A stretch of DNA of 20,521 bases from Planctomycetota bacterium (GTDB lineage Bacteria > Planctomycetota > PUPC01 > DSUN01). Every line of letters begins with the position of its first letter. Position 1 is the stretch's first letter. A model generated the notes under the pieces. The model was not told the origin of the DNA and did no database searches. It saw only the letters and a program-made list of their open reading frames with translations. Position numbers and translations under genes: made by a program. Of this stretch, positions 4,003 to 16,267 are shown piece after piece. The stretch covers positions 1-20,521 of the forward strand of contig VGYW01000109.1 of the NCBI GenBank assembly GCA_016872875.1, given 5' to 3'.

Positions 4003-5445
4003 GTGGCAGGCCAGCCCAAGCCACTGAACGTTGGCGACAAGACTCTGGTGACCAGGGCCATCGGGCCACAGGTGTACCGTCCGTGCTACTTCCTGTCCAT
4101 GAAGGGTGAGAACATCCGATGCTTCGGCGAGAAGCAGGCCCTCGATCTCTCAGATGGCCGGGGCCGCCCCGCGCGATGGACAGTTCTCCTCGGCGACAAC
4201 GGTGTTGGCAAGACGACGCTGCTCGAGTGTTTGGCTCTCATGCAGCCTCTCCCCGTGGTGAACCCGAAGACGGGAGCCACAGCCGGCATTCCCCGGTTCG
4301 GCGCTCCGGTTCACGGCATCCCCAATGCGGTGCGGTACTGGAGGCGCGGCACGACTCGTCTCGATCTCTCTTGTGAAGCCTACTGCGGGGAACCGCTGTC
4401 ACAGTGTACCGGCGCTGCCGAGAAGCTACCCCTCTCCACAAACGTGATCTACGGGGGGAAGGAGCCCGCGGTCAATGGCTCAGGGCCGTTCCCTTACGGC
4501 AGGATTGGGGGGCTTGTCTGCTACGGGTATGGCGCTGCACGGCGAATGAGGATGGGGGCTCTTACCGGCGAGGAGGAGCAGGACGGCTGCTCGACCCTTC
4601 TCTATGACGATGTTGCCCTACTCAACGCTGAGGAGTGGTTCGCCCGGAACCACCTCGCGGTGCTTGATGCAAAGGACAAGGCTGACAGGGCGCGCCAGAA
4701 CCAGGCGCAAGCCCAACTCGATCAGGTCGAGACGATGCTGATGGTCATCCTTCCAGGAGCGCGTGGGTTCCGACTGGTCGAGTCGGGCCGCAACGCTGGC
4801 CTACCTAAGATGAGTGTCGAAGTGAACACCGATTACGGCTGGGTGAGTATCCGTGATCTCAGCCTTGGTTACCGAACGATGATCGCGTGGACGGTGGACC
4901 TCGCGCGTCGGCTCTTCGAGCGATACCCTGATAGCCCCGACCCGCTGGCTGAGCCAGCGATAGCTCTCGTCGACGAGATTGACCTGCACTTGCACCCCAA
5001 GTGGCAGCGATCGTTGATGCAGTTCCTCACTGAGCGGTTCACGAACACGCAGTTCATTGTCACAGCCCATAGTCCGCTTGTGGTTCAGGCAGCCGAGGGA
5101 GCCAATGTCGTCGTGCTGCGCAGGGAGGGGGATCACGTGGTCATTGACAACGATCCCAAGGCGATCCAGGGCTGGCGCATCGACCAGGTGCTGACGAGTG
5201 ATCTCTTCGGCTTGGAGAGCGCCCGGCCGCCAAGAGAGGCCCGGCTGCTCGCTGAGCGCGCGAAGCTAGCCTCCAAGAGCACGCTCACCGAAGCAGAGAA
5301 GGCGAGGTTTGAGGAGCTTGAGAAGGCGCTTGCCGATCTGCCGACGGGGGAGACGCGGGAGGACAGGGAGGCGATGGATATCATCCGTCGGGCCGCCGCG
5401 GAACTGAAGCAGCGGGGAGCCGGGCACAATGATCCGCATCCATAG
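4003..5445 (+). CDS. ptuA: Septu-like AAA/ABC-type ATPase (PtuA-like)
   Basis: The protein has 480 residues. Residues 29-50 (YFLSMKGENIRCFG) are the RecF/SMC-like N-terminal strand-loop. Walker A is GDNGVGKTT at 64-72, Walker B is ALVDEIDLHLHP with D324 and E325, and the switch histidine is in VTAHSP (H356). The C-terminus from about 395 is a charged helical segment (SDLFGLES..., then LTEAEKARFEELEKALADL), typical of ATPases paired with HNH nucleases. There is no TOPRIM domain, unlike OLD nucleases. Its stop codon lies inside the next gene, which encodes an HNH endonuclease; this pairing defines the Septu anti-phage system, where the ATPase is thought to sense infection and control the nuclease. 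The start is GTG with GGGG about 8 nt upstream; the later ATG at 4099 would remove the conserved first strand. Codon third positions look less GC-biased than in neighbouring genes, hinting at transfer. It could also belong to another ATPase/HNH pairing. Confidence 0.8.
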   Translation: MAGQPKPLNVGDKTLVTRAIGPQVYRPCYFLSMKGENIRCFGEKQALDLSDGRGRPARWTVLLGDNGVGKTTLLECLALMQPLPVVNPKTGATAGIPRFGAPVHGIPNAVRYWRRGTTRLDLSCEAYCGEPLSQCTGAAEKLPLSTNVIYGGKEPAVNGSGPFPYGRIGGLVCYGYGAARRMRMGALTGEEEQDGCSTLLYDDVALLNAEEWFARNHLAVLDAKDKADRARQNQAQAQLDQVETMLMVILPGARGFRLVESGRNAGLPKMSVEVNTDYGWVSIRDLSLGYRTMIAWTVDLARRLFERYPDSPDPLAEPAIALVDEIDLHLHPKWQRSLMQFLTERFTNTQFIVTAHSPLVVQAAEGANVVVLRREGDHVVIDNDPKAIQGWRIDQVLTSDLFGLESARPPREARLLAERAKLASKSTLTEAEKARFEELEKALADLPTGETREDREAMDIIRRAAAELKQRGAGHNDPHP

Positions 5446-6196
5446 GCCCGCAGAAGCCCCGGCCATTCTCGCGGACAAGGGCAGGAAGAAGCAGCGTGCC
5501 CTCTGTTCGGCCTGTTCCCGTTCGCGCAAGGCGTACACAACTGGGGCCAAGACGTTCAGCTTCGACAGTGGCCTCTATGGCCACGAGAGCGTGAAGAAGG
5601 CTCTCATCGCCATGCAGCATGGGAAGTGCTGCTTCTGTGAGTCGAAGATCACGCACATTACGTACGGGGACGTGGAGCACTTCCGCCCCAAGGCCGGCTA
5701 CAGGCAACAGCCCGACGAGCAGCTTCGAAGGCCCGGGTACTATTGGCTGGCATACGAATGGTCGAATCTCTTCCTGGCCTGCGAACTGTGCAACCAGCGT
5801 TTCAAGGAATGCTTGTTCCCCTTGCGCGACCCAAGCCAGCGCGCCACGAGCCACAAGCACGACTTGAGCCTTGAAGAGCCCCTGCTGATAGACCCTGCAC
5901 GGGAGAAGCCCGAGGACCATCTCTACTTTCGCGGGGAACTCGTCCGCCCCGTTGAGGGAGACCTGATGGGCGAAACAACCACCGAGGTTCTCGGGCTGAA
6001 CCGCGAGCCGCTCGTCGAGCGGCGGCGCACGCTGCTGACGCATCTGCGCTGCTTACGCGAACTGACGCGCGTTGCTGCGCCGGCTGACGCGGCCGATGCG
6101 GTGGTTGCCCTGCGGCGAGCCACGACCGCCTCCGCTGAGTACGCTGCAATGGCCCGCGCCGCGCTCTCAACGGCATCTCTGACCACTCAAGCATGA
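5429..6196 (+). CDS. ptuB: Septu-like HNH endonuclease (PtuB-like)
   Basis: This 255-residue protein is an HNH nuclease of the TIGR02646-like type seen in Septu and in retron-Ec78-type systems. A zinc-binding CCFC (C67/C68 and C70) is followed by DVEHFRPK (H84 the probable metal-activating histidine), the conserved YYWLAYEWSNL at 104-114, and LACELCN (C118, C121, N122) that completes the zinc knuckle and HNH core. An FPL motif follows at about 130. The ATG at 5429 overlaps the ATPase gene by 17 nt and uses GGGGAG (5414-5419) inside it, so translation is probably coupled. DNA, or possibly RNA, cleavage during infection is the expected role by analogy. No reverse transcriptase or msr-like RNA is visible nearby, so a Septu assignment is favoured over a retron. 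Confidence 0.82.
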   Translation: MIRIHRPAEAPAILADKGRKKQRALCSACSRSRKAYTTGAKTFSFDSGLYGHESVKKALIAMQHGKCCFCESKITHITYGDVEHFRPKAGYRQQPDEQLRRPGYYWLAYEWSNLFLACELCNQRFKECLFPLRDPSQRATSHKHDLSLEEPLLIDPAREKPEDHLYFRGELVRPVEGDLMGETTTEVLGLNREPLVERRRTLLTHLRCLRELTRVAAPADAADAVVALRRATTASAEYAAMARAALSTASLTTQA

Positions 6197-6256: not shown

Positions 6257-6778
6257 ATGGCCGACCGCGAAGCGTTCCTGATGCTCCTGCTGCGAAACGA
6301 GGCGGGCATCCGCGCCTTCATCGCCTCGCTCATCCGCGACCCGAACACCCGCGACGACGTCTTCCAGGAGGTCGCCCTCGCCCTCTGGCAGCAGGCCGAC
6401 CGCTACGACCCGCGCCGCCCCTTCGAGGCCTGGGCTCGCGGCATCGCGGCCAACAAAATCCTCCAACGCCGCCACCAGGACAAGCGCTTCCCCATCGCCT
6501 TCCCGCCCGAGACGATTCTGGCCATCCTCGACGCCTTCGACCGCACGCAGGGGGAGACCCCCGGCCGCCTCGATGCGCTCCGCCACTGCCTGGAGCGGCT
6601 GCCCGAGAGGGGCCGCCAGCTCCTCGCACTCCGCTACGAGGAGGGCCTCAGCGTCCGAGAGGTCGCCGAGCGCACCAGCCGCACCCTCGACGCCGCCTAC
6701 CAGGCCCTCTGCCGCGTGAGGGCGGCACTCGAGGACTGCATCCGCCGCCGCCTCGCCGCGCAGGGGGAGGGAACCTGA
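6257..6778 (+). CDS. ECF RNA polymerase sigma factor (Rhodopirellula/Verrucomicrobium type)
   Basis: This 173-residue sigma factor has region 2 at about residues 9-75, with the core-binding and -10-recognition stretch DDVFQEVALALW at 33-44 and FEAWARGIAANKI at 56-68. Region 4 spans about 107-160, with LPERGRQLLALRYEEGLS leading into the helix-turn-helix VREVAERTSRTLDAAYQAL that contacts the -35 element. There is no region 1 or 3, so it is a group 4 (ECF) sigma. Length and motif wording match the subfamily expanded in planctomycetes and verrucomicrobia. The ATG follows an AGAGGA-type ribosome site. Its stop codon touches the ATG of the FecR-like gene, the usual sigma/anti-sigma arrangement, so its activity is probably controlled by that membrane protein. 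Confidence 0.9.
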   Translation: MADREAFLMLLLRNEAGIRAFIASLIRDPNTRDDVFQEVALALWQQADRYDPRRPFEAWARGIAANKILQRRHQDKRFPIAFPPETILAILDAFDRTQGETPGRLDALRHCLERLPERGRQLLALRYEEGLSVREVAERTSRTLDAAYQALCRVRAALEDCIRRRLAAQGEGT

Positions 6779-8698
6779 ATGCTCACGCCCCGCGACGGCG
6801 AGCTCATTGCACGCTACCTGGACGGCTTGGCTTCTGAGGCCGAGACAGCGGAGCTCGCGGGCCGCATCCAGGCCGACCGCGAGTGCGGGGCGGCCTTCGC
6901 CCGCGCCTGCCGCCTCGACGCCGCCCTCGGCGACCACTTCCGCCAGGAGAAGGGCGCGGGAGACGTGCGGGCAATCGTGGCGCGCATCAACGCCGCGCGC
7001 AGGACCCGCCGGCTGATCCTCGTGGCCGTGGCCGCCGTCGCCTTGCTGGCCGCCGTTGGCCTCTGGCTGGCGCCAGGCCCGGCCCCAATCGAGGTGGTGA
7101 CTGGGAAGGTCAGCGCTGATGGAGCCGAGGTGACACGCATCGCTTACGGCACGAGGTTCACCGTGCCTGCCAAGTGGGGGACGCGGCTGTTCCTTGGCGA
7201 CGGCTCGCGCGCCCAGCTCGACCCCGACACTGCCGCCGCCATCCACGGGCCGAGCGGCGACCTCCGCCAAGCCGTCGAGCTCTTCGCCGGCGGCGGCGAC
7301 TTCCGAGTGACCAAGAACAAAGGGCGGTTCGAAGTCCGAACCCCCGTCGGGCGAGTTACCGTGTTGGGGACGGAGTTCTCCGTCAGGCTCCTCCCCAGGA
7401 AGCACCGTGACGGGAAAGGAGAAGGGGGTATGAAGGCCAGGGGCGTGCTCCTTGCAGTCGGCGTCCTCGCGGGCGCCGTCCAGGTACAGGTCGGCGAGAG
7501 GGCCGTCGTCCTCGGAGTCGGCCAGTCGCAGGTCTTCGCGGGCGAGGAGGAACGCGCGCCGCGAACGGCCCGCATCGGCGGCGAACTCTCCAACGTCGGC
7601 ACAGACTCCATCACCATCGTCCAGCGGGGCGACCGCGGCGAGAGCACCAAGACCCTCACCGTGGACGCCCAGACGAAGGTCGTCATCGAATCTGACGACA
7701 TGGAGCAGATCACGGGCGAAGGCGGCACCCCAACCTACAGGGTGAAGCTGGTGGATGGGACGCTCGCCAACCTCAAGGCCGGCCGCCGCGTCACCGTCAC
7801 CTGCACCGAGGACGGGAAGGCCACGCTCATCGTCCTCAATCGCACAGCTTCCCGCCGCGAGGGTGGCGAGGGCGAGCCCCGCGTGAAGGTCGAGAAGCCG
7901 CGCCGCGAGGGCGGCGAGAGCGAGGGCAGGCCCAGAGTCGAGAAGCCGCGCCGCGAAGGCGGCGACACGGAAGGTGAGCCGCGCCGCGAGAAGCCCCGCA
8001 CTGAGGGCGGCGACCGCGAGGGCGAGCCACGGCGCGAGAAGGCGCGCACTGAGGGCGGTGAGGGCGAGGGCAAGCCCCGACGCGAAAAGGTCCGCACCGA
8101 GGGCGGCGATGGCGAAGGCGAGAAGCCGCGCCCTGAGGCCGGCGCGGGCGACGCCGAGGGCGAGAAGCCGCGTCCCGACGCTGGCGAGGGCGACCGCGAA
8201 GGCGAGGGCAGGCCCCGCGTCGAGAAGCCCCGCACTGAGGGCGGCGACCGCGAGGGCGAGGCCCGCGTCAAAGTCGAGAAGCCGCGCACCGAAGGCGGCG
8301 AGGGCGAGCGAGCCCCGAAGCCCAAGATCACCACAGGCATCCTCGCCGGCGTCAAGGCAGACTCCATCACCGTCGCAATCGGCGGCGAGAAAGGCGGCGG
8401 GCAGACGCTGACGTTCACCGTGGACGCCGCCACAAAGGTCGGGATCGAGGGCGAGCGGACCGAGGGCGGCCGCGAAGGAGCCGACCCCGTCAAGCGTCCT
8501 GTGCTTCTCACAGGCACCCTCGACGACCTGAGGGCCGGGCAGCGCGTCAGCGTCCAGGCCACGCCCGAGGGCAAGGCCACGAGGATCTTCATCTATCGCT
8601 CGCAGACGCGCGAGGGCGAAGGAGGCGAGCGCCGGCGCCCACGCGGGCCCGAGGGCGGCGTCGAAGGCAGGCCGCGCGGCGAACGCGGCGAGTTCTAG
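6779..8698 (+). CDS. FecR-like anti-sigma membrane protein with duplicated C-terminal beta domains
   Basis: The 639-residue product starts at an ATG directly after the sigma gene stop, with GGGGAGGG 8 nt upstream. Residues 1-75 form a short cytoplasmic helical region suited to binding the sigma factor. Residues about 78-98 (LILVAVAAVALLAAVGLWLA) are a single membrane segment, and about 104-260 are a FecR-like beta domain (VVTGKV..., GRFEVRTPVGRVTVLGTEFSV). An unusual insertion follows GTEFSVRL. Residues about 264-356 and 515-612 are two related copies of a small beta domain resembling DUF5666: GELSNVGTDSITI / TGILAGVKADSITV, TLTVDAQTKV / TFTVDAATKV, TLANLKAGRRVTV / TLDDLRAGQRVSV. They are joined by a charged Glu/Gly/Arg/Lys/Pro repeat at about 361-510. 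The signal it senses is unknown. The C-terminus ends in another Arg/Gly/Glu-rich tail. Confidence 0.85.
   Translation: MLTPRDGELIARYLDGLASEAETAELAGRIQADRECGAAFARACRLDAALGDHFRQEKGAGDVRAIVARINAARRTRRLILVAVAAVALLAAVGLWLAPGPAPIEVVTGKVSADGAEVTRIAYGTRFTVPAKWGTRLFLGDGSRAQLDPDTAAAIHGPSGDLRQAVELFAGGGDFRVTKNKGRFEVRTPVGRVTVLGTEFSVRLLPRKHRDGKGEGGMKARGVLLAVGVLAGAVQVQVGERAVVLGVGQSQVFAGEEERAPRTARIGGELSNVGTDSITIVQRGDRGESTKTLTVDAQTKVVIESDDMEQITGEGGTPTYRVKLVDGTLANLKAGRRVTVTCTEDGKATLIVLNRTASRREGGEGEPRVKVEKPRREGGESEGRPRVEKPRREGGDTEGEPRREKPRTEGGDREGEPRREKARTEGGEGEGKPRREKVRTEGGDGEGEKPRPEAGAGDAEGEKPRPDAGEGDREGEGRPRVEKPRTEGGDREGEARVKVEKPRTEGGEGERAPKPKITTGILAGVKADSITVAIGGEKGGGQTLTFTVDAATKVGIEGERTEGGREGADPVKRPVLLTGTLDDLRAGQRVSVQATPEGKATRIFIYRSQTREGEGGERRRPRGPEGGVEGRPRGERGEF
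7861..8310 (+). repeat. Degenerate coding repeat encoding an EKPR / EGG-rich linker
   Basis: About 450 nt inside the FecR-like gene consist of degenerate units encoding variants of EKPRREGGDxEGEPRR, with roughly ten occurrences of the core EK(P/A/V)R. The recurring DNA core is close to GAGAAGCCGCGC followed by GAGGGCGGCGA. Unit length varies, so this is a drifting tandem array and not a clean minisatellite. It is in frame throughout and separates the two related beta domains. Confidence 0.8.
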
Positions 8699-8781: not shown

Positions 8782-11514
8782 ATGACGACGGAGAGAGTCT
8801 TGACATTGGTTCTAGCGGTGGTGGTCTTTCCAATGCTCTTGGGCGACGACTGTGCAGCGGAAACGCCCAAGGGACTGACGGCCCGCACTCACTACGTGGC
8901 AAAGGATGGCGCTGACACCAACCCAGGCACAGAGGCGAAGCCCTGGCTGACCCTCAACCACGGCGTCAAGCAACTCAAGCCCGGCGACACGCTCTACATC
9001 CGCGGCGGCGACTACGCCGAATACCCCAAGGACGCCATCCCCTCGGGCGAGCCCGAGGCCCGCGTCACCGTGTCGAACTATAAGGATGAGGTTGTTACCA
9101 TCCGGCCCGCCCCGGACTCGGGTACGAGTCAGGACAGCGTCATCAGCATCAAGGGGAAATGCTACATCACGCTGCGGGGGCTGAACCTGGACGGGCACAA
9201 CGGCGCCGCCAAGATCCACCAGCACACGCTGGTGATCTGGGGCAGCGACCCGGTGCCGCACCATATCCGCGTCGAGAACTGCACCATGACGAACGGCCGC
9301 TGTTCCGGCGTCCTGTCGTCGGGCAATCAGTGCGAGTTCGTCAACCTCGATGTCCACCATAACGGCACGACCGGGCTGCACCACGGCATCTACACGGGCA
9401 TGGACAACAACCTCATCGAGGGCTGCGAGTTCTCCTACAACAAGGGGTTCGGCATCCACATCTACGCAACGTCCCCCAAGCGCGCCGACAACAACATCAT
9501 CCGCAACAATTACTCGCACCACAACGGCCTCGCGGGGGCGATCATCGGCACCGGCAACCGCAACGTGGCCTACAACAACGTCTTTGCCGACAATCCCATC
9601 GGCTCCTGGGTCCGCGGCGCCGGCACCAAGTTCTTCAACAACACCCTCCACAACAATAAGTTGGGGCTCGACGTCCAGTACACCAAGAACGCCGAGATCA
9701 AGCACAACATCATCGTCGGCGGCAGCAGCGGCCTCGATGCTTTTGTCGAGAAGAAACCCGAAGCGCGCGCCGAGAAACCCGTGCGAGGCGGGCGGACCGG
9801 CGGCAGGATGGACAGCCGGGGTGCCGCCGCGGCCGCCACGAACACCGACCTGGTGGTCGCCAGCAATTTCACCGAGGGCGATCCGCTGTTCGTGGCCCCT
9901 GATAAGGGCGACTTCCGTCTGAAGGACGGCAGCCCCGTTCCGGCCGGTGTGGGCGCCGTGATGGAAGTGGGGAAGGACGGCGTGGCGCGTCCCCGCGCCC
10001 CCGAGTCCTGGGCGCAGCGGCCGGAATTCCAGGTCGGGGCATTCGTACCAAACGACCCGACTGAAGTAGAACAGCCGCTGCCGCCGCGCGATCCGATCAC
10101 CTACTTCGTCGCGCCCAACGGAAAAGACGACAATCCCGGAACCGAAGACCGCCCCTGGGCGACGCTCAAGAAGGCGGCCGACTCCGTCGAGCGCGGCGAC
10201 ACCGTCCGTATCAAGGCCGGCGTGTATACCAAGACTGCCCCCAGCCAGTCGGCCTTCACCTTCACCAAGGCCGGCACCAAGGACGCCCCCATCACCTACA
10301 AGGCATACGGCGACGGCGAGGTGGTGCTGACGGCCGGCGAGGCCGTCCCTCCCGCGAGCTTCAAGCACGTCAAGGGCGCAATCTACTCCATGCCCTACGA
10401 CCCGAAGGCCGGCGTCCTGAACGTTTTCTGCAACGGACTGCCGTTGGTCGGCCACGGGCAGAATCACCCTGTGCCGTCGGTCGCCGAGATGTATCCGAAC
10501 TCATTCTACGAGGACAAGGACGCCTCGACCCTGTACGTCTGGCTGGCCGACGGCTCCGATCCCAGGAACTCCGACATGCGGACCGCGTCGCTGAACGTCA
10601 TCGGACTGATCTCCTGCCACCACACCATCTTCGACGGCCTGACGCTCCAGTACGGTTTTCGCGGGTTTCACTTGCATCGCTCGACCCACGATGTCACCAT
10701 CCGCAATTGTGTCATCCGCTCGATCGCCAGCCAGGGCATCATTCCCATACCCGAGAACTGCGTGATCGAAGGCAACACATTCCAGAAGATCGGCTCGACC
10801 AAGTTCAACCACGCCATGTATGGGAGCCTGCCGGGAGTGGTCGTGCGCCACAACGTGTTCGAGGAGATCAGCGGGGCGGCCGTCCACCAGTACGCCGGCG
10901 GCGGCAACGTCGGCAAGGACGGCTTCCGCATCTACAGCAACGTCTTCCGCAAGCCCGTCCAGTTCTGGGACAACACGCCGCGAAAGAGATACGAAAGCAC
11001 CGTGATCCTCTGGGCCCGCGACGAGAACTGGGTGTACAACAACGTGTTCTACGGCGACGGGAAGAAACCGGCCATCAGCACGACCCAGTCGGCCAACCTC
11101 ATCTTCCACAACACGCTCGTCGGCTGCCCGGTCGCCGTCGGCTTCGGCCCGCAGAGCAAGGACAACGACGTTCGCAACAACATCTTCGTGGACTCCGAGC
11201 GGGCGTTCATCAACTGGCCCGCGGAAGCGATGCCACAGAAGGCGCTGGACTACAACATCTACTGGAGCACGGGCGGGCCGCCGAAGTGGCAGCACGCCGG
11301 CAGAGACTACGCCACGTTCGCGGAGTATCAGAAGGCTGCCGGCGAGGCCCATTCGAGATACATTGATCCGGGCCTCACGGGTCCCGCCGACGCACGCCTG
11401 AAGGCCGGCAGCCCGGCCATAGACGCGGGCGCCCCGGTACAGGTGGATCGGGACTTCGACGGCCAGGCAAGACCGCGCGGCAGCGCGGTTGACATTGGGG
11501 CGTTTGAACGATAG
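8782..11514 (+). CDS. Secreted tandem right-handed parallel beta-helix protein
   Basis: The 910-residue protein has a signal peptide (LTLVLAVVVFPMLLG, probably cleaved near residue 26) and two homologous halves. Each begins with a DUF1565/pectate-lyase-like entry motif: THYVAKDGADTNPGTEAKPW at about 36 and ITYFVAPNGKDDNPGTEDRP at about 440. Each continues with a GDT(L/V)xI(R/K)xGxY segment and many Asn/His-rich coils such as NNIIRNNYSHHNG, VAYNNVFADNPIG and NLIFHNTLVG, the hallmark of right-handed beta-helices. Each half ends in a closing motif (DFRLKDGSPVPAGVGA, then ARLKAGSPAIDAGAP ... VDIGAFER). The fold is typical of secreted polysaccharide lyases, hydrolases or adhesins. I cannot assign a substrate. 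The ATG at 8782 has GAGGAGG just upstream. Confidence 0.88.
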   Translation: MTTERVLTLVLAVVVFPMLLGDDCAAETPKGLTARTHYVAKDGADTNPGTEAKPWLTLNHGVKQLKPGDTLYIRGGDYAEYPKDAIPSGEPEARVTVSNYKDEVVTIRPAPDSGTSQDSVISIKGKCYITLRGLNLDGHNGAAKIHQHTLVIWGSDPVPHHIRVENCTMTNGRCSGVLSSGNQCEFVNLDVHHNGTTGLHHGIYTGMDNNLIEGCEFSYNKGFGIHIYATSPKRADNNIIRNNYSHHNGLAGAIIGTGNRNVAYNNVFADNPIGSWVRGAGTKFFNNTLHNNKLGLDVQYTKNAEIKHNIIVGGSSGLDAFVEKKPEARAEKPVRGGRTGGRMDSRGAAAAATNTDLVVASNFTEGDPLFVAPDKGDFRLKDGSPVPAGVGAVMEVGKDGVARPRAPESWAQRPEFQVGAFVPNDPTEVEQPLPPRDPITYFVAPNGKDDNPGTEDRPWATLKKAADSVERGDTVRIKAGVYTKTAPSQSAFTFTKAGTKDAPITYKAYGDGEVVLTAGEAVPPASFKHVKGAIYSMPYDPKAGVLNVFCNGLPLVGHGQNHPVPSVAEMYPNSFYEDKDASTLYVWLADGSDPRNSDMRTASLNVIGLISCHHTIFDGLTLQYGFRGFHLHRSTHDVTIRNCVIRSIASQGIIPIPENCVIEGNTFQKIGSTKFNHAMYGSLPGVVVRHNVFEEISGAAVHQYAGGGNVGKDGFRIYSNVFRKPVQFWDNTPRKRYESTVILWARDENWVYNNVFYGDGKKPAISTTQSANLIFHNTLVGCPVAVGFGPQSKDNDVRNNIFVDSERAFINWPAEAMPQKALDYNIYWSTGGPPKWQHAGRDYATFAEYQKAAGEAHSRYIDPGLTGPADARLKAGSPAIDAGAPVQVDRDFDGQARPRGSAVDIGAFER

Positions 11515-12713: not shown

Positions 12714-13346
12714 TCACGCGGGCTCGCGCCGCAGGGCCGCCATGGCCAGCAACCCGTCCCTGAACACTTGAAAGCTCCTCGACCGGTTGCGTTGCGGGTC
12801 CATGTGTGCCGACACTGCGCGTGCGACTTCCAGCTTCGGGAGGCCCTCCCGGTAGTACCCCGCTTTCCTCAGGATACGCAGCAGAGCTTCCCACGTCCCG
12901 CTCTTGATTGCGTCGGGGTCACGGAACCGCGCCTTTTCTCCAAGGGACGCCGGCACTCCTGGATAGGCCGTTACGAGGGCTTGCACGTCGCCGAAGTACC
13001 ACGCCTCGATCTCCTCGATGGCGATCCGGTTGAGGACACGGAACTCGCGCTTGCCGGCGGCGACTGCTTTTGTGACGAAGCCGGTGTCACTGGCCACGCG
13101 CTCCATTCTCGCCTTCAGCGCCTCACACCCATCGGGGTCTCGATCCTCGTCAACGAGCACTACAATGAACCAGTCCTCGGGCAGCCATTTCCGGTAGGCC
13201 TTCAGCCTCGCTGGGAGCTTCGCCAGGAGGTCCGCCTTGCCTCGGTGGGGGTGGGTTCTGAACGACACGGCGCCGAGCATCTTTGGGATCAGGTTCCTGA
13301 GGAACGCCTCTGCGGACGGCTCCTCAAGGAGGAACTCGATGTGCAT
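12714..13346 (-). CDS. DUF4276-family protein, probable TOPRIM-like nuclease partner
   Basis: This 210-residue protein matches the DUF4276 pattern. An N-terminal strand with acidic turn (HIEFLLEEPSAEAFLRNLIP, E8/E9/E13) takes the place of the more usual EGpTE. A conserved HRGKADLLAKL follows at 34-44, then the acidic VVLVDEDRD (D66, E67, D68, D70) and the signature IEEIEAWYFGD (E111, E112, E114, W116). A glutamate followed by a DxD motif is the TOPRIM arrangement that binds Mg ions in OLD nucleases and topoisomerases; that link is inference. The start at 13346 has AAGGAG 9 nt upstream, inside the end of the ATPase gene. The pair is 6 nt apart and clearly co-transcribed. Together they look like an OLD nuclease split into two chains. 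No role has been shown for this protein here. Confidence 0.8.
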   Translation of the reverse strand: MHIEFLLEEPSAEAFLRNLIPKMLGAVSFRTHPHRGKADLLAKLPARLKAYRKWLPEDWFIVVLVDEDRDPDGCEALKARMERVASDTGFVTKAVAAGKREFRVLNRIAIEEIEAWYFGDVQALVTAYPGVPASLGEKARFRDPDAIKSGTWEALLRILRKAGYYREGLPKLEVARAVSAHMDPQRNRSRSFQVFRDGLLAMAALRREPA

Positions 13347-13352
13347 GCCAAG

Positions 13353-14615
13353 TCACTCCTTGGGAATCCCGTTCGCTCCGGGCATTGTGCGGTGCGGCCC
13401 ACCTGCATTCGTCAGGGGGTCCCCCACATCAAAGTGGCCCTCCATCCAGAGATTCCCAAGCTTCGCTCCGGCCTCCATGAACTCACGGATGCCTGGCATG
13501 TCGAGCGCCCTCCTGGCCTGGGTGAAGCCTCGATCGTCCCTGTACAGAACCCAGAGCTCTGAAGCCTCCAGGCCATCAATGAAGAACGGCGAATGGGTGG
13601 TCACCATCAATTGCGAGAGCGCCGCCGCCTTCCTGCATTCCTCGGCCAATTCGGGCAGGAGGCGTGGATGCAGGAAGTTCTCTGGCTCCTCAATCCCGAT
13701 GAGTTGCGGGGGTGTTGGATCGTATAGGAGCGTGAGATACGCAAGCATCTTAAGCGTGCCGTCCGATGCGAACTTCGCCAGAATCGGGCGCTCGAACGGC
13801 GCGTCCTTCACTTGAAGCAGCAGCCGGCCGTCTGCCAATAGCTCGGCATCTACCTTCTCGAGACGGGGCACCCGGTCGGAGAGAACCCGGAGAATCGCCG
13901 CGAGCTGGTCGGGGTGTTGCTCCTTCAGATACTGGACGACGTTGGGCAGGTTATCGCCGGTCGAGGAGAGGTGTTCCTGGGGGCCCGCCTCCGGGACCCC
14001 GCGGATGCTCTGAGCACTCAGGTAGGACAAGTGCCAACCCGTGATGAACCGGCGCAACGCCGCAACCCGGGGGTGCTTGGCGAACCGGCCCAGCGTGTTG
14101 ACCGCCAGCAGCTCAGGGGAGTCGAGTTCCTCCGGGTTCCGGCCAGCATCCTCGTCGGGAACTTCCCCCGGCGTGGCGTACCCCTTGCCTCTCGAGAAGT
14201 CGAGGAAGACAAATGGGCGCCCGCTTCCGCTCCTGCGCGTCCATCTGAGCCATTCCCTGGACACTTCAGGGCCCTTCGACCCCTCGTCAATCTCCAAGTG
14301 GTAGGTGAGCAGCGGCGGCTGAGGGGGCATTTCCCGGTACTTGAGCTCAATCACGATTGGGCCGTCCGCACCGCGAGTCCTCAACTCGCGGAAGCGCCCG
14401 CGCTTGTCCCAGGCGCGCCGCAGGCCATCCGAGAAGCACTCTGCAAGGAAAGCGAAGACGTCAAAAACCGTGGACTTGCCGCTCCCATTTGGCCCAACGA
14501 GCACGGTGAGGGGCGCAATCTGCTTCAGCTCCAGGTCGTGCAACGCCCGGTAGTTCCGCACCCGCAGGTACTCGATGCGCGGCACCGACTGCGTGGGTAT
14601 GGCTAAGGGCTCCAT
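13353..14615 (-). CDS. OLD/RecF-like AAA ATPase partnered with DUF4276 protein
   Basis: The 420-residue ATPase begins [20 protein letters not shown], the RecF-type first strands, then Walker [10 protein letters not shown] at 41-49. [14 protein letters not shown] (281-294) fits the ABC-signature region, [13 protein letters not shown] (305-317, E309/E310) is Walker B and [13 protein letters not shown] (338-350, H341) carries the switch histidine. A short C-terminal tail contains [10 protein letters not shown] (386-395). The length is that of stand-alone AAA_21 ATPases, with no fused TOPRIM. The ATG at 14615 is preferred because AAGGAGG lies about 8 nt upstream and a promoter lies at 14662-14691, which would be inside a longer reading frame. 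With the next gene it forms a two-component ATPase/nuclease-like operon, the design seen in several anti-phage systems (for example PARIS, where the partner is DUF4435). Confidence 0.85.
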
Positions 14616-14661
14616 GCCTGGGCCTCCTTGGCTCGGTCGCTCTGTGGTTCCGGCTGAGAGG

Positions 14662-14691
14662 ATTATACATGCTCCCGCGGGCACCGGTCAA
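14662..14691 (-). promoter_or_regulatory. Sigma70-type promoter of the ATPase/DUF4276 operon
   Basis: On the minus strand TTGACC (14691-14686), an 18-nt spacer and a perfect TATAAT (14667-14662). Transcription would start near 14655, giving a leader of about 40 nt to the ATG at 14615. This placement also rules out an upstream start for the ATPase. Confidence 0.75.
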
Positions 14692-14710
14692 GGCTCGAAC
14701 CCCATCCGAG

Positions 14711-14740
14711 TTGGCAATAACCCCTTCGCGCTGCTACACT
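14711..14740 (+). promoter_or_regulatory. Sigma70-type promoter of the GH32/43-like gene
   Basis: TTGGCA (14711-14716), an 18-nt spacer and TACACT (14735-14740) precede the ATG at 14774 by 33 nt. It lies back to back with the minus-strand promoter at 14662-14691; the two -35 boxes are 19 nt apart, so one regulator bound between them could affect both directions. Confidence 0.6.
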
Positions 14741-14773
14741 GAGCGGGCGGCCGGTAGCGCTCGGAGGTCGCAG

Positions 14774-16267
14774 ATGGTCGTGCATGACTTGGTGGCGTTG
14801 GCGGTGCTGCTCGGCATCGCGTGTCTGGCAACGGTCAACGCCGGCGCGGGCGAGCCCCGCCCGCCGGTTCAGCCCGCTGAGCGGGTTCCCTTGTCGGCAA
14901 AGCACGCGCTGATCTACGCGGCACAGCGGCAGGATTCCCCAAACACACCGATGCCGTTGGCCAAGGGGCCGCACCTGTTTCTCGATGACTTCCTCGTGGA
15001 GACGAGCGAGGGCGTTGAGCGCAGGGTGAACGTGCCGCAGCGCGAGGCGAGCATCCCCAACCCGGTCGTGACGGGGAAGGAGGACGGCTGCTTTCAGCCT
15101 TACATGACCGTGCTGCGGGACGCTGCGACGGGGCGGTTCCGCATCTGGTACGGCCACCGTACCGACGACCGCAGCATGATGGCCTCGCACGTCGGCTACA
15201 TGGAATCCGACGACGGCATCCGCTGGCTCCGCCCCCACCGCGTCCTTCGCGACCCCGCGCCCATCCAGTTCGGCGCAAGCGTGATGGATGACGGGCCGGC
15301 CTTCGCCGACCCGGCCAAGCGCTTCAAGCTCGGCTGGTGGCACGGCGGCGGACTCAACGTCGCCGCCTCGCCCGACGGCCTCGACTGGCAGCCGCTGGCT
15401 CCAGGCGTCGTCCTCCCCCACAACCACGACATCACGGGCATCGCACGCGACCCCATCCGCAACCGCTACTTCGCCACGGCCTCCGTCTTCATCGGCGGCC
15501 CCTGGAAGGGCAGCCGCCGTGTGACCATGCAGAGCACGAGCCACGACCTCCTCACCTGGGCCACGCCCCACCACGTCCTCGTGCCCGACCTCAAGCTCGA
15601 CGAGGGGGAGACGCAGTTCTACGCGATGGACGGCTACCTCGCCCGCGGCAGCCTCCTCATCGGCCTGGTCAAGGTGCTCCGCGACGACCTGAAGGCCGAC
15701 GCGCCGCCCAACCCGCCCGACCAGTATGGCGTCGGCTACACCACCCTCGCCTGGACCCGCGACGGCGAGACCTGGGTGCGCGACCGCACGCACTTCTTCG
15801 ACCCCGACCCCCGCAAGGGCGCCTGGGACCACGCCCACGCCTGGATTGACGAGCAGCTCCCAGTCGGCGATCAAGTCTATCTCTACTATGGCGGCTACAA
15901 GCGCGGCCACAAGGTCAACCGCTTCGAGGAGCGCCAGATCGGCCTCGTGCGCATGGGGCGCGACCGCTACGTCGCGCGCGAGGCGGGAGAGCGGCCCGGC
16001 CGCCTCGTCACCCCGCCCCTCACCCTCGACGCCGAGGCGATGACCCTCAACATCGCGGCCAAAGGCGGCGAGGCCAAGGTGGAGGTCCTCGACGAGGCCG
16101 CCAAGCCCCTCCCAGGCTTCTCCGCCCAGGACTGCTCGCCAATCGCCGACGACTCCCTGGCCGCCCCCGTGGCCTGGAAGCTGCCGCTCAGCTCCCTCAA
16201 GGGGAGGCCCATTCGCCTGGCGTTCTCGCTGCGAGACGCTCGGCTCTTCGCATTCGACCTGCGGTGA
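14774..16267 (+). CDS. Secreted sialidase / GH32-GH43-like five-blade propeller protein
   Basis: The 497-residue product has a signal peptide (LVALAVLLGIACLATVNAGA, cleaved near residue 25). The repeated pattern GYMESDDGIRWLRP, VAASPDGLDWQPL, MQSTSHDLLTWATP and LAWTRDGETWVRD is the SxDGxxW blade motif of sialidase and GH32/43-like propellers. DDFLVETSEGVERR near residue 75, and a C-terminal beta-sandwich (LNIAAKGGEAKVEVLDEAAKP, then LKGRPIRLAFSLRDARLFAF), match a family abundant in planctomycetes and lentisphaerae, often annotated only as a glycoside hydrolase-like protein. It probably acts on or binds extracellular glycans; the substrate and the catalytic acids are not evident. The ATG at 14774 has GGAGG 6 nt upstream, starts the signal peptide, and lies downstream of the promoter, unlike the earlier in-frame ATG at 14669. 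Confidence 0.82.
   Translation: MVVHDLVALAVLLGIACLATVNAGAGEPRPPVQPAERVPLSAKHALIYAAQRQDSPNTPMPLAKGPHLFLDDFLVETSEGVERRVNVPQREASIPNPVVTGKEDGCFQPYMTVLRDAATGRFRIWYGHRTDDRSMMASHVGYMESDDGIRWLRPHRVLRDPAPIQFGASVMDDGPAFADPAKRFKLGWWHGGGLNVAASPDGLDWQPLAPGVVLPHNHDITGIARDPIRNRYFATASVFIGGPWKGSRRVTMQSTSHDLLTWATPHHVLVPDLKLDEGETQFYAMDGYLARGSLLIGLVKVLRDDLKADAPPNPPDQYGVGYTTLAWTRDGETWVRDRTHFFDPDPRKGAWDHAHAWIDEQLPVGDQVYLYYGGYKRGHKVNRFEERQIGLVRMGRDRYVAREAGERPGRLVTPPLTLDAEAMTLNIAAKGGEAKVEVLDEAAKPLPGFSAQDCSPIADDSLAAPVAWKLPLSSLKGRPIRLAFSLRDARLFAFDLR

Follow-up and report, generated by a model that had tools for sequence, protein, structure and literature searches.

The OLD nucleases of classes 1 to 3 (P2 OLD, Gabija GajA and retron Eco8) join an ABC-type ATPase and a TOPRIM nuclease in a single chain, and PARIS (AriA plus AriB; OLD class 4) divides this architecture between an ATPase and a separate TOPRIM nuclease, AriB, which we take to belong to the family DUF4435. 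RloA/RloB and AbiL, known from restriction loci, consist of an ATPase and a small TOPRIM-like partner; PrrC is one protein with a different nuclease domain, lying between hsdS and hsdR. In PARIS, AriA is reported to keep AriB inactive; once phage proteins, Ocr among them, bring about its release, AriB cleaves tRNA-Lys (PMC12409363). PrrC, a latent nuclease, is reported to become free when the restriction enzyme is inhibited by Stp of T4 (PMC3874165). TOPRIM-linked OLD-ABC pairs are said to have been described earlier by Aravind and colleagues (PMC12839542), and several of the Hma-embedded candidates (HECs), including HEC-06, are reported to have demonstrated antiviral activity (PMC12988326). 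Here we analyze two minus-strand genes on contig VGYW01000109.1 of a Planctomycetota bacterium, within a stretch (the window) that spans positions 1-20,521; the pair, with its upstream signals, occupies 12714-14691 and codes for an OLD-type ABC ATPase and a protein of the family DUF4276. At a probability of roughly 0.72, we read it as a two-gene split-OLD anti-phage module of the HEC-01 kind, in which the ATPase would gate a TOPRIM nuclease and bring about abortive infection. The computed support for this reading comes from the protein families, the predicted TOPRIM fold, the conserved acidic residues, the gene order, a natural fusion, linkage of part of the family to type I restriction operons, and plasmid-borne copies, one of them surrounded by phage genes.

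Among the system models of PADLOC-DB 2.0.0, the best match of the ATPase is PDLC04182 (HEC-01A, 543 bits), with a score five times that of the best model outside HEC-01, AriA of PARIS (106 bits). The best match of the DUF4276 protein is PDLC04202 (HEC-01B, 288 bits), and all 10 of its matches at E <= 1 are HEC-01 models. Since both proteins match and their genes are adjacent, the pair is by sequence a member of the catalogued candidate system HEC-01, an assignment made by models and adjacency and not by PADLOC's system rule file; it is thus not undescribed, although the first-pass annotation of this DNA had put it forward as a candidate for an undescribed module. No difference between the pair and HEC-01 was seen, and PADLOC states no mechanism for the system. 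The labels of one HEC-01 clade in PADLOC-DB look swapped, 'HEC-01B' PDLC04144 matching ATPases and 'HEC-01A' PDLC04143 matching DUF4276 proteins. The source of the HEC candidates is reportedly a 2024 preprint by Payne et al. In the literature searched, the coverage of which leaves out preprints and most subscription papers, we found no assay of HEC-01 and nothing relevant on DUF4276 or PF14103, and we make no claim to be the first to report either the TOPRIM assignment or the linkage to restriction; HEC-01 is named in one relevant paper, which predicts it for a strain of Desulfovibrio piger (PMC12724379). Membership of PARIS was considered and rejected: the partner of the ATPase is a DUF4276 protein and not a DUF4435 protein (AriB), it matches PF14103 only, and no AriB model is found among its PADLOC matches; nor is the pair known to respond to Ocr. 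RloA/RloB and AbiL have a similar plan, the AbiLi model also matches the ATPase (79 bits), and the Mad3 ATPase model of NCBIfam, from the MADS system, matches it with 120 bits, far under the cut-off of 420 bits.

Both reading frames are open and intact, and their description as two tightly coupled genes holds. The ATPase (420 residues; 13353-14615, minus strand) starts at an ATG at 14615, with an AAGGAGG ribosome-binding site (14623-14629, minus strand) 7 nucleotides (nt) ahead of it, and ends at the stop codon 13355-13353; the longest mechanical frame starts at a GTG at 14684, but the earlier residue numbering fits the ATG. The DUF4276 protein (210 residues; 12714-13346, minus strand) has its ATG 6 nt beyond that stop, on the same strand, and its AAGGAG ribosome-binding site (13356-13361, minus strand) lies inside the 3' end of the ATPase gene. 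A sigma-70-like promoter candidate for the pair, TTGACC-18-TATAAT (14662-14691, minus strand), agrees with the consensus at 11 of 12 bases, which bears out the near-consensus promoter noted earlier; 2 such sites occur in the region against a mean of 0.2 in shuffled sequence. In Pfam, the ATPase matches AAA_21 with 109 bits and the partner matches DUF4276 (PF14103), its sole Pfam match, with 106 bits (cut-offs 27 and 30). The stop codon between the two parts sets the pair apart from the fused OLD nucleases, as had been proposed; a single-chain OLD assignment of class 1, 2 or 3 was rejected on this ground, and a scan of window open reading frames revealed neither a helicase nor a reverse transcriptase family.

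The ATPase is of the same type as that of OLD, with a Walker A motif at residues 41-49 (K47), Walker B residues E309 and E310, and H341 in the H-loop, all at the positions given by the first-pass annotation. K47, E309, E310 and H341 are invariant in an alignment of 33 ATPases, in which P42 of the Walker A motif is variable. By sequence, the closest solved structures are PtuA and Thermus OLD (E 8e-9). When the ATPase and the DUF4276 protein were read through the natural stop as one joint chain, the predicted structure (predicted local distance difference test, pLDDT, 83.8; predicted template-modelling score, pTM, 0.83) had full-length Thermus OLD (6p74) as its top Foldseek match (E 1.5e-14), and its VIA-align matches were chiefly ATPase heads, so that they carry no information on the docking of the TOPRIM part. 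The protein probably binds and hydrolyses ATP and would hold its partner.

The DUF4276 protein carries E8/E9, D66/D68 and EEIEAW (111-116), the motifs that had been likened to a TOPRIM centre. E8, E9, D66, D68, E111, E112, E114 and W116 are invariant among 45 close relatives, and E8, D66 and E114 are so across 25 sequences, 16 of these at 13-22% identity. The predicted model (pLDDT 89) shows a TOPRIM domain, with a glutamate after strand 1 and the DxD motif after strand 3, followed by a helical part, and TOPRIM regions of OLD head its fold matches, in agreement with the likeness proposed; searches of solved structures by sequence, with the single sequence or a profile, found no DUF4276 relative. 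On this model, the invariant acids map to the positions of the two-metal site of OLD, the ligand residues of which are reported as E400, E404, D455, D457, T506, E508 and K562 (PMC6755086), and K171 is a candidate counterpart of the OLD catalytic lysine. The DUF4276 protein is therefore predicted, as far as the model goes, to supply the nuclease of an OLD system that is divided between two chains.

The two genes travel as a unit. The DUF4276 protein has 3442 matching proteins at E <= 0.001; with one genome scanned per species, 380 relatives were obtained, and the 80 best were retained, from Bacteria and Archaea, 16 named phyla and 7 loci without a named phylum. Identity to the window proteins is 54-76% for the ATPase and 50-60% for DUF4276. 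The ATPase lies directly upstream of DUF4276 on the same strand in all 80 loci (in L049 and L057 it is cut by the contig end). The intergenic distance is -11 to +39 nt in 79 loci; in the remaining locus (L079, an Akkermansia metagenome-assembled genome) the two genes are naturally fused in frame, giving a single frame of 615 residues. The genomes of 40 of these loci contain 95 DUF4276 matches, a total that includes the 40 anchors, at 1 to 7 per genome; 14 control genomes have none. A distant set of 20 further stretches, one of which (L107) is an anchor, leaves 19 of the 55 non-anchor DUF4276 genes, and a related ATPase is found immediately upstream in 18 of the 19, the adjacent ATPase frame of the exception (L104) being 141 residues long. 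Moreover, the divergence of the two proteins is correlated (Mantel r 0.60, a value reached by 0 of 2000 permutations), which shared descent alone could also yield. In one of the genomes (G030, Hormoscilla, locus L053), contig C2 carries a distant DUF4276 gene with a gene of the AriB family DUF4435 some 2.5 kb away (~1082500 and ~1085677).

The first-pass annotation had interpreted the pair as a candidate split-OLD defence system, a view that the analysis supports, and had proposed to look for defence genes around its relatives. The neighbourhood is indeed non-random. Under a null of random placement in which contig ends are ignored, 10 of the 40 genomes have hsdS (PF01420) no more than 10 kb from the anchor pair (expected 0.56; p 5e-11) and 8 have hsdR (PF04313) at such a distance (expected 0.40; p 4e-9), against 1 for the control family Aconitase_C (PF00694; expected 0.42; p 0.35). 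The ten hsdS cases have the order hsdS, pair, hsdR, all in the same direction, and the hsdM, hsdS and hsdR cluster members that were found are without exception co-directional. Among the 72 of 80 loci with at least 1.5 kb of downstream sequence, 16 have hsdR within 1.1 kb downstream on the same strand, mostly in the order hsdS-ATPase-DUF4276-hsdR. In these 16, hsdR adjoins DUF4276 in 15 and is separated from it by one gene in L005; it forms one frame of at least 820 residues in 14, is fragmented in L008 and has 489 residues in L074; and hsdS lies upstream in 14 and was not found in L020 and L027. In addition, L044 has an hsdR remnant only, and L015 and L019 have hsdR 2-3 kb downstream. Representative HsdM and HsdS proteins and two kinds of HsdR were confirmed by Pfam. 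The hsdR-linked loci span 8 phyla, including Methanobacteriota, and the embedded state requires at least 9 changes on a quick ATPase tree (in this count L044 is scored as embedded, giving 17 embedded loci and 55 others; two of the 55 are absent from the tree). The association with restriction is therefore not a single inherited event, gains and losses being indistinguishable. Part of the HEC-01 family thus lies within type I restriction operons, as PrrC does. This does not hold for the window copy, for which a PrrC-like placement between hsdS and hsdR was rejected, no restriction gene having been found among the window open reading frames scanned. A GIY-YIG nuclease domain (64 bits), which could be a mobile insertion, was seen in or at the end of two type I subunits, HsdM of L008 (3137-5020) and HsdR of L077 (5984-8791).

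Copies of the pair also occur on plasmids, with 10 records matched, four of them Synechocystis pSYSM-like, and 5 examined. A Meiothermus taiwanensis plasmid, pMtWR-220, carries, on one strand, a methyltransferase gene, DUF262, hsdS, DUF4433, a macro domain gene, the ATPase, DUF4276 and hsdR, the DUF4433 protein being DarT (234 bits). On Synechocystis pSYSM the pair has toxin-antitoxin genes nearby, together with the gene of a methyltransferase associated with phosphorothioation, on a Rahnella plasmid (CP003404; L122, 5712-7654) it lies among phage genes, with an antitermination gene on one side and lysis genes on the other, and on a conjugative Pseudomonas plasmid transfer genes flank it. The neighbours on a Pseudanabaena plasmid are ordinary, including glycosyltransferases, with no defence genes alongside. 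A DNA-level search of E. coli genomes gave no match.

From these observations we infer ATP hydrolysis, the holding of the partner, the cue, the substrate and the abortive outcome as follows. The ATPase, with an ABC head like those of OLD, PtuA and AriA, would act as sensor and gate, binding and hydrolysing ATP while holding its partner, and the DUF4276 protein would be the effector, cleaving nucleic acid with two Mg2+ ions bound by E8, D66, D68 and E112/E114. In the uninfected cell the ATPase would hold the nuclease in check. A cue from the phage would alter the ATPase, the likeliest being that DNA processing or the cell's type I restriction enzyme is interfered with, and the altered ATPase would free or activate the nuclease. 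The nuclease would then cut tRNA or DNA and halt phage growth, probably at the expense of the cell. An abortive, ATPase-gated two-metal nuclease is favoured by analogy, because the architecture matches that of PARIS and the position that of PrrC.

Several points weigh against this reading. The Foldseek template-modelling (TM) scores of the DUF4276 model to OLD are just 0.41-0.48, and the model contains no metal, the site being assigned by residue position and not by geometry. The hhalign comparison of DUF4276 with AriB-type DUF4435 is moderate (probability 83 over 59 columns), and that with RloB, made with a small and ragged alignment of six proteins, gave no convincing profile alignment (probability 7), so that kinship with RloB found no support; a comparison of RloB with DUF4435 gave none either. 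DUF4276 has no PHROG family and is rare in phage data, with 1 distant phage record and 4 viral-contig loci. No hsdR is found within 1.5 kb downstream in 55 of the 72 relatives, a count that concerns hsdR only, and the window copy has none nearby, with no restriction gene among the window open reading frames scanned. The mean pairwise identity of the two proteins, 69% and 55%, is high for a sensor in an arms race. Finally, phylum labels are grouped on the ATPase tree, where 15 groups need 22 changes and shuffled labels need 51 on average, and transfer between phyla has therefore not been rampant.

The reading that competes most closely concerns the position of the pair. Possibly, the slot between hsdS and hsdR gathers unrelated defence genes, and the pair is a defence module with no working link to restriction, for which we put the chance only a little short of even. 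The slot is reported to hold DarTG2 in E. coli and, in four genomes, a pair of an RNA-binding protein and an AAA-like ATPase (PMC12255303), and two genes, TgvAB, have been reported inside a type I operon of Vibrio cholerae (PMC11411939). Beside the HEC-01 pair itself stand DarT and the macro protein in Meiothermus, and DUF3800 (L008, 7481-8146) and SLFN_AlbA_2 (L045, 2446-3645), each of the latter two lying between hsdS and the pair; the 55 relatives without hsdR directly downstream also fit such a passenger. Recurrence in one slot across 8 phyla, an archaeon included, with at least 9 changes on the tree, and the co-direction of the restriction genes speak for a closer tie. By analogy, interference with restriction would be the likeliest cue where the pair is embedded; since DarTG2, TgvAB and others occur in type I operons, however, an uncoupled hotspot is about as likely an account of it. 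That embedded HEC-01 guards type I restriction enzymes and originated independently of PrrC and PARIS, its ATPase sensing a block by phage anti-restriction proteins and unleashing the DUF4276 nuclease, is a tentative proposal with the odds somewhat against it.

The substrate of the nuclease may be DNA, as it is for OLD. In one alternative the pair would carry out non-suicidal restriction, cutting invading DNA in the manner of Gabija GajA or P2 OLD, with the ATPase sensing nucleotide levels or DNA ends. AriB, a tRNase, and OLD have the same fold, the likeness to OLD says little about the substrate, and the DUF4276 protein, at 210 residues, has no additional domains. We regard this alternative to an abortive nuclease as rather less likely than not.

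A role in the host cell, in replication, repair or the cell cycle, is improbable. It would suit the high conservation of both proteins and the setting of the window copy among ordinary genes with its own promoter-like site, and there is a precedent in archaeal Cran1, an OLD-family ATPase and nickase that is reported to be essential and apparently not antiviral (PMC12796447). A household function is difficult to reconcile with hsdS and hsdR linkage far above chance, with copies on plasmids and amid phage genes, or with a number of DUF4276 matches that varies from 1 to 7 per genome in the chosen genomes and is nil in the controls. The base composition of the pair also argues against it, with a G+C content (GC) of 63.6% and GC at third codon positions (GC3) of 0.79-0.80, below the rest of the window (68.4%; GC3 0.87-0.94 in five genes). 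A Septu pair in the window is similarly low (63.0%; GC3 0.75-0.77), which suggests a foreign origin of both pairs. Chance pairing of an ATPase with an unrelated protein is refuted by the adjacency, the fusion and the correlated divergence.

The Septu pair lies 6.5 kb away from the ATPase and DUF4276 genes and consists of PtuA (4003-5445, plus strand; PADLOC, 486 bits) and PtuB (5429-6196, plus strand; 319 bits), which overlap by 17 nt. The first-pass annotation had the HEC-01 pair sitting among unrelated genes; the pair does stand alone, but that description omits the Septu pair at 4003-6196. The Septu ATPase belongs to the same superfamily as the one studied here, and the Septu effector is an HNH nuclease and not a TOPRIM protein; the HNH match of the Septu effector here is weak. 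Septu is followed by a gene for a sigma-70-family protein with regions 2 and 4 (6257-6778, plus strand), which a FecR-domain gene (6779-8698, plus strand) directly adjoins, and then by a gene for a beta-helix protein (8782-11514). Divergent from the HEC-01 pair is a gene at 14774-16267 (plus strand), which shares with it the intergenic region 14616-14773 that holds the promoter-like site; the start at 14774, chosen by us, would give a signal-peptide-like N-terminus, and the longer frame has no Pfam match.

A domain of unknown function with thousands of relatives thus receives a concrete predicted job. If embedded HEC-01 does guard type I restriction enzymes, DUF4276 would be a large, previously unassigned family of OLD-type effectors, each with its own ATPase, in bacteria and methanogens. 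The recurrence of hsdS-ATPase-DUF4276-hsdR offers a testable form of the long-standing idea that restriction enzymes may be backed up by a second defence, set off when a phage disables them.
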